This document shows positions 2,416 through 48,304 of a stretch of 64,000 bases of DNA, one piece after another (the first letter of the stretch is position 1; the number at the start of each line of letters is the position of its first letter). The stretch comes from Psychromonas sp. CNPT3 (GTDB lineage Bacteria > Pseudomonadota > Gammaproteobacteria > Enterobacterales > Psychromonadaceae). A program made the position numbers and the translations under genes. Under the pieces are notes generated by a model, which did no database searches, was not told the origin of the DNA, and saw nothing but the letters and a program-made list of their open reading frames with translations. The DNA lies in assembly GCF_000153405.2 (NCBI RefSeq), contig NC_020802.1, positions 2,065,883-2,129,882 on the forward strand, read 5' to 3'.

Positions 2416-3702
2416 TTATTCTTGATCCATTTTCGGCAAACATAAGTTGAGTACGATGGCAACAACACCACATAAACTCACACCTTGTAAGCTAAATGAG
2501 CCAAAACCAAAGGCCATGCCACCAATACCAAACACTAATGTCACTGAAACAATACATAAATTACGCGGATGTGATAAATCAACTTGATGACGAATTAACG
2601 TATTTAAGCCAACTGATGCAATACTACCGAATAATAAAATCATGATCCCGCCCATTACTGCAACAGGGATTGTTTGCAATATAGCGCCAAACTTACCCAC
2701 AAAAGCTAACACGATCGCAATGATCGCAGCCCATATCATAATTTTTGGATTAAAATTACGGGTGAGCATAACCGCGCCAGTGACTTCACTATACGTAGTA
2801 TTAGGAGGTCCCCCGAATAAAGCAGATACGCTCGTTGCGAGCCCATCACCAAATAAAGTGCGGTGCAAGCCCGGCTTTTTAAGGAAATCCTTACCCGTCA
2901 CATTACTAATAGCAAGGATATCACCAACATGCTCAACGGCTGGCGCAATCGCCACCGGGATCATAAATAATACCGCATGCCAGTTCCATTCCGGTGCGAC
3001 AAACTTTGGCACACTAAACCAAGGTGCATTTGCTATCGCAGTAAAATCGACCACACCAAAGTAAAAGGCTAATAAATAACCCACTAATACTCCAGCGAAA
3101 ATAGGTACTAATTTTAATACACCTTTAGCCATTGTCGATATCAATAAGGTAGCTAATAAAGCCGGTAATGAAATCATTAACGCGGTTTCATAGGCAATAA
3201 AAACAATAGAGCCATCGCCTGATTTACCAATTGCCATGTTCACAGCCATTGGCGCAAGGCCTAGACCAATCACCATGATCACAGGTCCCACAACTACAGG
3301 GGGTAATAAACGATGAATAAAATCAACACCACGCACTTTAACGGCATAGGACATCAGCATATAAACGAGGCCGGCCGCAAAAAGACCAGACATCGTTCCC
3401 GCAATTCCCCACGTTTGTACGCCATAGGTAATAGGCGCAATAAACGCAAAAGATGACGCTAAAAAGATAGGCACTTGCCCTTTCGTCACCCATTGAAATA
3501 ACAAGGTACCAAGACCTGCGGTAAACAGAGCAACATTGGCATCAAGACCGGTAATTAAAGGCATTAAAACTAATGCCCCAAAGGCCACAAATAACATTTG
3601 CCCGCCGGCAAATATTTGTTGAAGCGTATTAAAATTAGCCGTTAAATCTTCCTTTACCTGGCTATTTTTTTCATTTACTGGTTGTGGCGTATTAGCGGAC
3701 AT
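2416..3702 (-). CDS. uraA: NCS2-family uracil permease
   Basis: This 428-residue polytopic membrane protein of the NCS2 nucleobase:cation symporter family takes up uracil at the inner membrane. The substrate-site segments are visible: APAVEHVGDIL around residues 254-263 (Glu257 corresponds to Glu241 of E. coli UraA) and GGPPNTTYSEVTG around 298-309 (Glu306 corresponds to Glu290). The position equivalent to E. coli His245 is Asp261, as in many other NCS2 members, so specificity could be slightly broader than uracil alone. It begins 14 bp after the upp stop, with an AGGAG ribosome site, so it is the second gene of a upp-uraA operon. That pairing supports uracil as substrate. The shared terminator is at 2354-2382. 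Confidence 0.93.
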   Translation of the reverse strand: MSANTPQPVNEKNSQVKEDLTANFNTLQQIFAGGQMLFVAFGALVLMPLITGLDANVALFTAGLGTLLFQWVTKGQVPIFLASSFAFIAPITYGVQTWGIAGTMSGLFAAGLVYMLMSYAVKVRGVDFIHRLLPPVVVGPVIMVIGLGLAPMAVNMAIGKSGDGSIVFIAYETALMISLPALLATLLISTMAKGVLKLVPIFAGVLVGYLLAFYFGVVDFTAIANAPWFSVPKFVAPEWNWHAVLFMIPVAIAPAVEHVGDILAISNVTGKDFLKKPGLHRTLFGDGLATSVSALFGGPPNTTYSEVTGAVMLTRNFNPKIMIWAAIIAIVLAFVGKFGAILQTIPVAVMGGIMILLFGSIASVGLNTLIRHQVDLSHPRNLCIVSVTLVFGIGGMAFGFGSFSLQGVSLCGVVAIVLNLCLPKMDQE

Positions 3703-3716
3703 CCCTTTCTCCTGTC

Positions 3717-4343
3717 TTATTTAGTACCAAAAATCTTATCGCCAGCATCACCTAGTCCAGGCACAATATATCCTTGTGCATTTAGGTGCGAATCAATCGA
3801 CGCTGTATAAACTTCGATATCTGGGTAAGCTGCTTCTAAGGCTTTTAGGCCCTCAGGCGCTGCTACTAAAATAAGTACTTTAATATTCGTACAACCGCTT
3901 GCCTTAAGAAGATCTAGCGTTGAAATCATTGAGCCACCCGTTGCAAGCATGGGATCAACCACTAATGCGAGACGCTCATCAATTTGGCCAACTAATTTAG
4001 AGAAATAAGGAATAGGCTCAAGTGTTTTTTCATCGCGATAAATACCGACTACGCTCACTTTCGCGCTTGGAATATTCTCTAAAACACCATCCATCATGCC
4101 TAATCCAGCTCGTAAGATTGGCACGACAGTGGCTTTTTTTCCTTTAATTTGTTGCACAACAATTTCACCATCCCAACCATTGATAGTGACATCTTCAAGT
4201 TCTAAATCTTTCGTTGCTTCATAAGTTAATAAACTAGAAACCTCACGCGCTAATTCACGAAAACGTTTTGTACTAATATCGCCTTCACGCATTAGACCTA
4301 ATTTATGCTGTACTAGTGGGTGTTTAACTTCTATTACTTTCAT
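3717..4343 (-). CDS. upp: Uracil phosphoribosyltransferase
   Basis: The enzyme converts uracil and PRPP to UMP in pyrimidine salvage in the cytoplasm. From the ATG at 4343 it has 208 residues, the length of E. coli Upp, and begins [19 protein letters not shown]. An in-frame ATG six codons upstream (4361) is less likely, because AAGGAG sits 6 nt before 4343. The PRPP-binding loop [11 protein letters not shown] and the C-terminal uracil-binding region [17 protein letters not shown] are intact. It is cotranscribed with uraA. Its 5' leader carries a short ORF (4456-4557) and an intrinsic terminator (4408-4444), so attenuation is possible. Confidence 0.96.
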
Positions 4344-4407
4344 GTTCATCTCCTTGGACAATGTTTAAATAAAACAACCGATCTCTTTTTTACACAATAA
4401 ATACGTA

Positions 4408-4444
4408 TAAAAAAAGAGCAATAACACTAAGGTTACAGCTCTTT
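4408..4444 (-). promoter_or_regulatory. Terminator hairpin in upp leader (candidate attenuator)
   Basis: On the minus strand AAAGAGC (4444-4438) pairs with GCTCTTT (4419-4413). An inner TAAC/GTTA stem lies beyond a 2x2 mismatch, and seven T follow. The hairpin is 65 bp before the upp start and 12 nt after the stop of a small leader ORF. A ribosome at that stop would cover the hairpin base, the geometry used by E. coli pyrBI attenuation. The terminator is seen in the sequence; its regulatory role is inferred. Confidence 0.6.
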
Positions 4445-4455
4445 AATTCTTTAAT

Positions 4456-4557
4456 TTAATTTTTATATTCTCGATGACGCCACGTAGGCATATAAATAAA
4501 GGGAATATATGCCATAGCATCTATCTTTACCCTTAATTTTTTATATAAACCTGTCAT
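4456..4557 (-). CDS. Putative 33-residue leader peptide of upp-uraA
   Basis: A short frame opens at ATG 4557 and ends at TAA 4456, after a purine-rich GAGCGAGG sequence at a usable distance. It lies between the tRNA-Asn terminator and the upp attenuator-like hairpin. The C-terminal half is aromatic and basic (IYMPTWRHREYKN). I do not recognise a family. It may be a leader peptide whose translation couples to termination ahead of upp, or a chance frame. Conservation of the frame in relatives would separate these. Confidence 0.45.
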   Translation of the reverse strand: MTGLYKKLRVKIDAMAYIPFIYMPTWRHREYKN

Positions 4558-4648
4558 ATTAGCCTCGCTCAATAAATATTCAATACTATTATTATCGCCT
4601 ATTTTAAGCGATTTGATATTTTGAATATACTATTCTTTCAGATATTCG

Positions 4649-4680
4649 AAAAAAGCCCTAAGTTCAGAGAACTTAGGGCT
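4649..4680 (-). terminator. Terminator of tRNA-Asn operon
   Basis: An 11-bp perfect stem (4654-4664 with 4670-4680), a 5-nt loop and a run of six T on the minus strand lie just past the last tRNA-Asn gene. It closes the six-gene tRNA transcript and separates it from the upp leader. Confidence 0.9.
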
Positions 4681-4686
4681 TAAATA

Positions 4687-4762
4687 TGGCTCCTCTTGCT
4701 GGACTTGAACCAGCGACACACGGATTAACAGTCCGTTGCTCTACCAACTGAGCTAAAGAGGA
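4687..4762 (-). tRNA. tRNA-Asn (GTT), copy 6 in transcription order
   Basis: This 76-nt cloverleaf has anticodon GTT in the loop CTGTTAA and an encoded CCA end. It is the promoter-distal copy. It differs from the other five at one T-loop base (T instead of C near position 60), so it has not been fully homogenised with them. Confidence 0.97.
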
Positions 4763-4843
4763 ATTGTCTTTTTAAGTCTTCCGACTCGTTACCTTGTTTA
4801 CAACAAAAGTTTACAACAAAAGTTTACAACAAAATAACTATAT

Positions 4844-4919
4844 TGGCTCCTCTTGCTGGGCTTGAACCAGCGACACACGGATTAACAGTCCGTTGCTCTA
4901 CCAACTGAGCTAAAGAGGA
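4844..4919 (-). tRNA. tRNA-Asn (GTT), copy 5
   Basis: This 76-nt tRNA-Asn carries anticodon GTT and an encoded CCA end and is identical to copies 1-4. The 81-nt spacer to the next gene contains an imperfect tandem repeat of TTTACAACAAAAG units, a sign of slippage or unequal exchange. Confidence 0.97.
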
Positions 4920-4973
4920 ATTGTCTTTTTAAGTCTTCCGACTCGTTACCTTGTTTACACAAAATAACTGTAT

Positions 4974-5049
4974 TGGCTCCTCTTGCTGGGCTTGAACCAG
5001 CGACACACGGATTAACAGTCCGTTGCTCTACCAACTGAGCTAAAGAGGA
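4974..5049 (-). tRNA. tRNA-Asn (GTT), copy 4
   Basis: This 76-nt tRNA-Asn has anticodon GTT and an encoded CCA end. The 54-nt spacer before the next gene keeps the shared block CTTTTTAAGTCTTCCGACTC seen between all copies, so the array grew by duplication of gene plus spacer. Confidence 0.97.
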
Positions 5050-5105
5050 ATTGTCTTTTTAAGTCTTCCGACTCGTTACCTTGTTTAATAACAAAATAAC
5101 TGTAT

Positions 5106-5181
5106 TGGCTCCTCTTGCTGGGCTTGAACCAGCGACACACGGATTAACAGTCCGTTGCTCTACCAACTGAGCTAAAGAGGA
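5106..5181 (-). tRNA. tRNA-Asn (GTT), copy 3
   Basis: This 76-nt tRNA-Asn has anticodon GTT and an encoded CCA end and the same sequence as its neighbours. The spacers on both sides are near-identical, which is consistent with recent tandem duplication. Confidence 0.97.
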
Positions 5182-5237
5182 ATTGTCTTTTTAAGTCTAC
5201 CGACTCGTTACCTTGTTTAATAACAAAATAACTATAT

Positions 5238-5313
5238 TGGCTCCTCTTGCTGGGCTTGAACCAGCGACACACGGATTAACAGTCCGTTGCTCTACCAACT
5301 GAGCTAAAGAGGA
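5238..5313 (-). tRNA. tRNA-Asn (GTT), copy 2
   Basis: This 76-nt tRNA-Asn has anticodon GTT and an encoded CCA end. The spacer to copy 3 carries a single change in the shared block (CTACC for CTTCC on the plus strand). Confidence 0.97.
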
Positions 5314-5382
5314 ATTGTCTTTTTAAGTCTTCCGACTCGTTACCTTGTTTACAACAAAAGTTTACAACAAAATAACTATATT

Positions 5383-5458
5383 TGGCTCCTCTTGCTGGGC
5401 TTGAACCAGCGACACACGGATTAACAGTCCGTTGCTCTACCAACTGAGCTAAAGAGGA
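5383..5458 (-). tRNA. tRNA-Asn (GTT), copy 1 (promoter-proximal)
   Basis: This is the first gene of the minus-strand array: 76 nt, anticodon GTT, encoded CCA end. It starts about 50 bp downstream of the strong promoter at 5512-5540. Confidence 0.97.
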
Positions 5459-47082: not shown

Positions 47083-47159
47083 GGCTACATAGCTCAGCTG
47101 GTTAGAGCACATCACTCATAATGATGGGGTCCCAAGTTCAAATCTCGGTGTAGCCACCA
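47083..47159 (+). tRNA. Elongator tRNA-Met (CAT), copy 1
   Basis: This 77-nt cloverleaf has anticodon CAT in loop CTCATAA and an encoded CCA end. It resembles E. coli metT rather than initiator or tRNA-Ile2, though the sequence alone cannot exclude a lysidine-modified form. It is first in the array. Confidence 0.93.
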
Positions 47160-47169
47160 TTTACTTTAT

Positions 47170-47254
47170 GCGGAAGTGGCGGAATTGGTAGACGCGCTAG
47201 ATTTAGGTTCTAGTATCGTAAGATGTGAGAGTTCAAGTCTCTCTTTCCGCACCA
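47170..47254 (+). tRNA. tRNA-Leu (TAG), copy 1
   Basis: This 85-nt class II tRNA has a long variable arm, anticodon TAG in ATTTAGG and an encoded CCA end. It follows tRNA-Met after 10 nt. A 12-bp hairpin begins at its CCA end. Confidence 0.96.
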
Positions 47255-47277
47255 TTTTTATCTTAGATAAAAATGGT
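47251..47277 (+). repeat. Perfect hairpin at 3' end of tRNA-Leu copy 1
   Basis: ACCATTTTTATC (47251-47262) and GATAAAAATGGT (47266-47277) form a 12-bp perfect stem over TTA that includes the tRNA's terminal ACCA. It lacks a clean T run, so it is more likely an RNA-processing or partial-termination signal. Confidence 0.6.
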
Positions 47278-47350
47278 GATATATCAGAAAATAATCTAAA
47301 TAGTTGATTATATGATGATAAGCAGAGATAATAACTCTTAAACATATTAT

Positions 47351-47425
47351 TGGGATATCGCCAAGCGGTAAGGCACCGGGTTTTGATCTCGGCATTCAGA
47401 GGTTCAAATCCTCTTATCCCAGCCA
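47351..47425 (+). tRNA. tRNA-Gln (TTG), copy 1
   Basis: This 75-nt tRNA has anticodon TTG in loop TTTTGAT and an encoded CCA end. It is like E. coli glnU/V-type tRNA-Gln. Its 5' flank (47302-47350) is repeated before copy 3 and before the decayed copies. Confidence 0.96.
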
Positions 47426-47459
47426 AATTCACTGTTTTGCTTTTAGCAAAAGAGTAATA

Positions 47460-47556
47460 CTTGAAGAAGTTTAAACTTAGCGCGTAACGCTTTAAAATTA
47501 CAGAGACAATGACTCTTAAAAACATTAGAGAAAATAACTCTTAAACATATTATTGG
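47460..47556 (+). repeat. About 95-bp direct repeat, copy A (partner at 47859-47954)
   Basis: The block from CTTGAAGAAGTTTAAAC to the start of tRNA-Gln copy 2 recurs at 47859-47954 with a single-base length change in an A run. The two copies show that a tRNA-Gln-containing segment was duplicated within the array. Confidence 0.9.
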
Positions 47557-47628
47557 GATATCGCCAAGCGGTAAGGCACCGGGTTTTGATCTCGGCATTC
47601 AGAGGTTCAAATCCTCTTATCCCAGCCA
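47554..47628 (+). tRNA. tRNA-Gln (TTG), copy 2
   Basis: Its sequence is identical to copy 1. Only one base separates its CCA end from tRNA-Leu copy 2, so the two must be separated by precise processing. Confidence 0.96.
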
Positions 47629-47629
47629 T

Positions 47630-47714
47630 GCGGAAGTGGCGGAATTGGTAGACGCGCTAGATTTAGGTTCTAGTATCGTAAGATGTGAGAGTTCAAGTCT
47701 CTCTTTCCGCACCA
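47630..47714 (+). tRNA. tRNA-Leu (TAG), copy 2
   Basis: This 85-nt tRNA-Leu is identical to copy 1. It is followed by the hairpin TTCTTAGTT/AACTAAGAA and a degenerate form of the final terminator (about 47738-47761: AACC...GGTTTTTTT), suggesting the array once ended here. Confidence 0.96.
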
Positions 47715-47773
47715 TTCTTAGTTTAACTAAGAAGAAAGAACCCGTTAAATCTGGTTTTTTTGTTTAAGTAAAT

Positions 47774-47850
47774 GGCTACATAGCTCAGCTGGTTAGAGCA
47801 CATCACTCATAATGATGGGGTCCCAAGTTCAAATCTCGGTGTAGCCACCA
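47774..47850 (+). tRNA. Elongator tRNA-Met (CAT), copy 2
   Basis: Its sequence is identical to copy 1, and it also shares the 5' flank TTTAAGTAAAT, so it was copied with upstream sequence but not with the promoter. Its expression depends on read-through past the decayed terminator or an unseen promoter. Confidence 0.93.
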
Positions 47851-47858
47851 TTACTTAG

Positions 47859-47954
47859 CTTGAAGAAGTTTAAACTTAGCGCGTAACGCTTTAAAATTAC
47901 AGAGACAATGACTCTTAAAACATTAGAGAAAATAACTCTTAAACATATTATTGG
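47859..47954 (+). repeat. About 95-bp direct repeat, copy B (partner at 47460-47556)
   Basis: This is the second copy of the block described at 47460-47556. Here it leads not into an intact tRNA-Gln but into two decayed tRNA-Gln units. Confidence 0.9.
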
Positions 47955-48046
47955 ATATCAACAAATAGTCGGCACTGTAGATTTTAATATAGGATCTCGG
48001 TAGATTAAATGATGATAACCAGAGAAAATAACTCTTAAAAATATTG
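47951..48046 (+). pseudogene. Decayed tRNA-Gln unit 1 (96-bp tandem repeat)
   Basis: The 5' part still resembles tRNA-Gln: GGATATC, then a D-arm remnant (AACAAATAGTCGGCAC against GCCAAGCGGTAAGGCAC), then GATCTCGG from the anticodon stem. The anticodon loop is interrupted and the T-arm and CCA are lost. The unit is 96 bp with the same 3' flank that precedes the intact copy 3. I see no functional cloverleaf. Confidence 0.65.
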
Positions 48047-48142
48047 TTGGATATCAACAAATAGTCAGCACTGTAGATTTTAATATAGGATCTCGGTAGA
48101 TTAAATGATGATAACCAGAGAAAATAACTCTTAAACATATTA
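48047..48142 (+). pseudogene. Decayed tRNA-Gln unit 2 (96-bp tandem repeat)
   Basis: This nearly exact copy of the preceding 96-bp unit has only a few changes (for example AGTCAGCAC for AGTCGGCAC), so the decay came before the duplication. The next unit in phase, at 48143, is the intact tRNA-Gln copy 3. Confidence 0.65.
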
Positions 48143-48143
48143 T

Positions 48144-48218
48144 TGGGATATCGCCAAGCGGTAAGGCACCGGGTTTTGATCTCGGCATTCAGAGGTTCAA
48201 ATCCTCTTATCCCAGCCA
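48144..48218 (+). tRNA. tRNA-Gln (TTG), copy 3
   Basis: This intact 75-nt tRNA-Gln is identical to copies 1 and 2. It stands in the same 96-bp phase as the two decayed units upstream and is one base before tRNA-Leu copy 3. Confidence 0.96.
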
Positions 48219-48219
48219 T

Positions 48220-48304
48220 GCGGAAGTGGCGGAATTGGTAGACGCGCTAGATTTAGGTTCTAGTATCGTAAGATGTGAGAGTTCAAGTCTCTCTTTCCGC
48301 ACCA
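48220..48304 (+). tRNA. tRNA-Leu (TAG), copy 3
   Basis: This 85-nt tRNA-Leu, anticodon TAG, is identical to copies 1 and 2. It is the last gene of the array and is followed by a small TTCTTAGTT-type hairpin and the terminator. Confidence 0.96.

Follow-up and report, generated by a model that had tools for sequence, protein, structure and literature searches.

A candidate translation-coupled transcription attenuator preceding upp-uraA in the deep-sea bacterium Psychromonas sp. CNPT3

Organization of the upp-uraA locus

The window analyzed (the whole stretch of 64,000 nucleotides, positions 2,065,883 to 2,129,882 of contig NC_020802.1) belongs to Psychromonas sp. CNPT3, a deep-sea piezophile (PMC3668011). 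Read directly along its minus strand, the region of interest presents in succession a promoter-like core, a Shine-Dalgarno sequence, a 33-codon frame, 11 nt, an intrinsic terminator, 65 nt, upp and uraA. The individual features, numbered from the first letter of the window, are as follows.

4648–4681, minus strand: intrinsic terminator closing the upstream tRNA-Asn run, AGCCCTAAGTTC-TCT-GAACTTAGGGCT plus a T run; read directly
4591–4611, minus strand: promoter-like core TCGC(C)TTAAAATAGGCGATAAT, with a putative -10 GATAAT at 4596–4591 and a weak -35; retained in the sister genome G004
4563–4566, minus strand: Shine-Dalgarno GAGG, within GAGCGAGGCT, 5 nt 5' of the ATG; read directly
4456–4557, minus strand: leader frame of 33 codons, ATG at 4557 to stop TAA at 4458–4456, translation MTGLYKKLRVKIDAMAYIPFIYMPTWRHREYKN
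4409–4444, minus strand: intrinsic terminator, putative attenuator, with a 7+5 bp stem, one internal mismatch and a U tail; read directly
4344–4408, minus strand: 5' untranslated region of upp (65 nt) with Shine-Dalgarno AAGGAG; read directly
3717–4343, minus strand: upp, uracil phosphoribosyltransferase, the putatively regulated gene, ATG at 4343; UPRTase family PF14681, 3e-64
2416–3702, minus strand: uraA, which from family knowledge we take to encode uracil permease (428 aa), presumed from its position and translation to be co-transcribed with upp

Six tandem tRNA-Asn genes lie upstream of the leader on the same strand (4687–5458). The strong terminator at 4681–4648 closes this run, so that only the small frame is found between the two terminators; about 90 nt separate the tRNA-Asn terminator from the frame and contain the promoter-like core and the GAGG. 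The six tRNA-Asn(GTT) copies are near-identical, versus a single copy at the same site in G004. Elsewhere in the window (47083–48301) eight tRNA genes are clustered as repeated units, apparently tandem duplications.

The second hairpin, AAAGAGC.GUAAC-CUUAGU-GUUAU.GCUCUUU, begins at 4444 on the minus strand and is followed by seven T (4415–4409); of these, the first three are able to pair with the stem's AAA. Folded alone it reaches about -11.5 kcal/mol in the window and -9.8 in G004, and a hairpin and T run as good did not arise in any of 200 dinucleotide-shuffled versions of the 307-nt region. An automated terminator scan of the window did not call it, probably because of the internal mismatch. 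The initial annotation had recognized a 33-codon frame with a ribosome site, an intrinsic terminator with seven T and upp 65 bp beyond, all of which were recovered here; the 12 nt that it had placed between stop codon and stem are in fact 11.

Conservation of the leader region

Among 24 genomes of the genus, this layout is common to CNPT3 and G004 only. In the other Psychromonas amtB precedes upp, in most cases with the amtB terminator a little past its stop codon; CNPT3 lacks the upp-adjacent amtB copy and has one other amt gene elsewhere in its genome. One relative (L023) repeats the outer stem of the CNPT3 hairpin, AAAGAGC...GCTCTTTTTTTAT, in its amtB terminator. In Enterobacterales, Shewanella and others, upp and purM are mostly arranged divergently; there the upp leader has no terminator beyond sporadic hairpins, but frequently a GATTTTTTT start. 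No comparable leader was found at the other upp loci compared. A further survey, which scored terminators only, covered the upp leaders of another 60 genomes from the order and the other loci retrieved; the hits inspected fell in or after upstream genes, in long GC-rich pairings or in isolated hairpins without a shared layout. The comparison of upp upstream regions across genera, as proposed in the initial annotation, places the arrangement in CNPT3 and G004 alone among the genomes compared.

The Upp proteins of these two strains share 95% amino acid identity, with a dS of about 1.1 and 39 of 91 fourfold sites identical, so that neutral sequence is expected to be near saturation. Against this background the flanking elements are well kept: the tRNA-Asn terminator (33/36 identical, 92%), the 53 nt 5' of the -10 (87%), the stretch from the -10 to the frame start (85%), the Shine-Dalgarno region (82%, with GAGCGAGGCT unchanged), the hairpin (34/36, 94%, its one stem change keeping the pair, C-G to U-G) and the upp 5' untranslated region (55/59 aligned positions, 93%, with six gap columns from indels of 2 and 4 nt). 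The position of the frame start is retained as well, ATG in CNPT3 and GTG in G004. The frame body, in contrast, is 59% identical, no better than shuffled sequence, and carries indels of -3, -1 and +3; counts by codon position before the indel are 8/6/8, as expected without coding constraint. The body has thus diverged to a point where neither peptide nor RNA sequence is kept. No significant homologue of the small peptide occurs in the 24 genus genomes, the leader DNA matched G004 only when searched in the genus and in its own genome, a conserved RNA fold of the body is unsupported (z about -0.9 in each genome, with differing hairpins), and Rfam returned no family at gathering score nor at E up to 5, only weak sub-threshold hits. 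A PyrR-dependent attenuator or another Rfam leader was rejected, there being no gathering-score match and no PyrR element among the weak hits.

What does persist is openness. The frame is open for 33 codons in the window and 37 in G004, each of the other two frames having 3–5 stops. The window frame alone is modestly beyond chance (P of at least this length, given a start codon, about 0.035). For G004 the chance is 0.030, or about 0.03–0.06 if independent of the window, and rises to about 0.16 for at least 30 codons, and 0.08 for 37, when the G004 sequence is generated by simulated neutral drift starting from the window; these values come from two genomes only, the first frame having been chosen post hoc. 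The stop codon lies 11 nt 5' of the stem in the window and overlaps the stem in G004. The outcome that the initial annotation considered adverse, a broken frame beside an intact hairpin, was seen weakly: the peptide is lost, shifted by the -1 indel, yet G004 still has a frame that is open as far as the hairpin. Taken together, the conserved Shine-Dalgarno, start and openness support translation of the leader moderately but not strongly.

Putative promoter, terminator and the known pyrimidine leaders

The core AAAATAGGCGATAAT was searched in both genomes as a 22-mer, allowing up to 3 mismatches (the reversed-pattern control gave 0 matches). Besides upp, it recurs only in the gap upstream of gmk, in both CNPT3 and G004 (L228 and L230), 54 nt 5' of the gene, suggesting a promoter ahead of the frame. 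We infer that the core is a promoter with GATAAT as its -10 and a transcription start near 4584. An inverted repeat spans the putative -10, ATCGCC-N8-GGCGAT in G004 and ATCGC-N9-GCGAT in the window (4593–4612), and could be an operator. Sigma-70 scans by simple scoring gave no consensus promoter on either side of the hairpin, and are uninformative since scores stay at the level of random AT-rich sequence even at the relatives' upp. Over the 65 nt from the hairpin to upp, no sigma-70-like or otherwise plausible promoter shared by the window and G004 was found, nor any convincing candidate for the downstream promoter that the initial annotation had named as evidence against attenuation.

Intrinsic terminators are repressed when an upstream stop codon lies less than about 27–30 nt from the stem, and amino-acid attenuators avoid this by keeping a stop-to-terminator distance of more than 20 nt (PMC4824070). 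Both gaps observed here fall within the repressing range of that study, the overlap in G004 being more favourable to ribosome blocking than the 11 nt of the window. Pairing of leader segments with the 5' arm of the hairpin stays at chance level in both genomes, which makes a classic antiterminator unlikely, so that the best reading is direct occlusion by the ribosome, as at pyrBI and pyrE. An amino-acid leader-peptide attenuator was rejected: the frame contains no special codon run, no antiterminator rises above chance, and the gap is 11 nt or an overlap versus more than 20 nt (PMC4824070).

The closest likeness is to the pyrBI attenuator of E. coli, where a Shine-Dalgarno-bearing leader frame likewise precedes an intrinsic terminator ahead of a pyrimidine gene, no antiterminator is involved, the peptide sequence is free and the terminator is within reach of the ribosome. 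By sequence, two features expected of pyrBI/pyrE-type attenuators are present at upp: an intrinsic terminator between leader and gene, and a Shine-Dalgarno-bearing frame open to the terminator in both genomes. The systems differ in that pyrBI attenuation controls aspartate transcarbamylase and is UTP-sensitive, whereas the CNPT3 case concerns a salvage gene, with UTP as a putative signal; also, the pyrBI frame runs through the stem, whereas the CNPT3 upp frame stops before it and has no recognized U-rich pause tract. The E. coli rph-pyrE attenuator has a translated frame whose end lies a short distance 5' of the terminator hairpin, which resembles the 11-nt gap at upp, although the pyrE leader frame is a full gene (rph) and the upp leader comprises 33–37 codons without a conserved product. 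The body of the upp leader is rich in A (40% A and 33% T in the window; 32% T in G004), its longest T run is 3 in the window versus 6 in G004, and no conserved U-rich pause tract is shared by the two. UTP-dependent pausing is thus not visible in the sequence.

A similar arrangement, used here as an internal control, occurs at pyrB in the same genomes. In CNPT3 (L154, G000:C1:571617-572510) and G004 (L153, G004:C3:810-1703) a pyrBI-type leader frame and terminator lie just upstream of the gene, the terminators being identical at 33 of 34 positions. CNPT3 has a 20-codon frame ending at the terminator foot and a 26-codon frame running through the terminator; in G004 a 42-codon frame runs through the terminator and ends at the pyrB start, as does the pyrBI leader frame of E. 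coli. Frames and peptides differ between the two genomes. Six other Psychromonas have a short pyrB leader without a terminator, and no terminator was found in the 220 nt upstream of pyrE in CNPT3, G004 and two relatives. Attenuation of the pyrBI kind hence seems to be in use in the CNPT3/G004 lineage, and the leader of upp appears to behave like that of pyrB, apart from the more conserved body of the latter (33/40 identical).

In E. coli, upp itself is controlled by reiterative transcription together with UTP-sensitive start-site choice (Tu and Turnbough 1997, cited in PMC6245113); control is exerted at the initiation step, through a T-tract that follows a TATAAT box. This system has the same target gene and would follow the same logic if UTP is the signal in CNPT3. 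A T-tract start, GATTTTTTT, which is the UTP-sensitive element known from E. coli upp, is seen at upp in many relatives. Reiterative control of the E. coli type was rejected for CNPT3, where GATAAT is followed by AATAGTATTG, with no T-tract.

Proposed mechanism, alternatives and implications

The explanation that we favour, and to which we give about an even chance, is that upp-uraA is preceded by a translation-coupled transcription attenuator. Transcription would begin near 4584, 5' of the small frame, and a ribosome would translate the leader, as the conserved Shine-Dalgarno, start and openness suggest. A ribosome close behind RNA polymerase would be at or near the stop codon while the hairpin is transcribed, covering its foot, so that the terminator would fail and upp-uraA would be read; a lagging ribosome would allow the hairpin to form and transcription to end. 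The peptide sequence would be irrelevant. The most natural signal would be low UTP, slowing RNA polymerase and inducing uracil uptake and salvage, but this is a guess by analogy and UTP sensing should be regarded as doubtful. Of the pyrBI-like attenuation put forward in the initial annotation, the attenuator layout therefore stands, with Shine-Dalgarno, start, terminator, core and openness retained in G004 and a gap in the ribosome-blocking range, but its UTP component is not borne out by a conserved U-rich pause tract.

The most serious competitor, which we nevertheless rate as rather unlikely, holds that the hairpin is an ordinary terminator, either an amtB relic or an additional block past the tRNA-Asn operon, that the frame merely happens to be open in a drifting spacer, and that upp is read from a promoter of its own between hairpin and gene or relies on leak-through. 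The amtB gene and terminator found just 5' of upp in other Psychromonas, the missing upp-adjacent amtB in CNPT3, the shared outer stem in L023 and a frame body without selection on the peptide all fit this account. Yet a useless relic is not expected to remain 94% identical at a dS of about 1.1, the Shine-Dalgarno and an 85-nt upstream block are also kept, the 65 nt past the hairpin, with their indels of 2 and 4 nt, share no sigma-70-like site, and the frame is open in both CNPT3 and G004. Less probable still is that the same translated-leader switch responds to the general coupling of translation with transcription (translation rate, cold, pressure or ppGpp) instead of UTP. Geometry and conservation fit it as they fit the attenuator reading, the leader has neither a U-rich pause tract nor a special codon run, and CNPT3 is a deep-sea piezophile (PMC3668011), but both the location at a pyrimidine salvage operon and the co-occurrence of a pyrBI-type leader in these genomes point rather to pyrimidines as the signal. 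That the region is an independent small gene, for a small protein or sRNA unrelated to upp, is very unlikely, for although core, Shine-Dalgarno, frame and terminator would make a self-contained unit, promoter and terminator included, changes have saturated the body so that it keeps neither peptide nor RNA sequence, no homologue occurs in the 24 genus genomes, and Rfam yields only weak sub-threshold hits.

The initial annotation knew of no described attenuator of this kind at upp; no report of one was found in the literature searched, which excludes most subscription journals, and upp is unmentioned in the main text of Naville and Gautheret (2010). Returning to the attenuator, we tentatively suggest that in a single lineage of deep-sea Psychromonas a UTP-responsive, pyrBI-like form of it arose at the uracil salvage operon once the amtB context had been lost, with the peptide free to drift, unlike the start-site mechanism of E. 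coli upp and alongside the pyrB leader. If this is true, a pyrBI-like switch would operate at a salvage operon for which E. coli uses another UTP sensor. It would also be a clean case in which selection retains only the start site, the openness of the frame and the terminator, leaving the peptide to drift; such a signature may be usable to find peptide-independent attenuators missed by sequence conservation.
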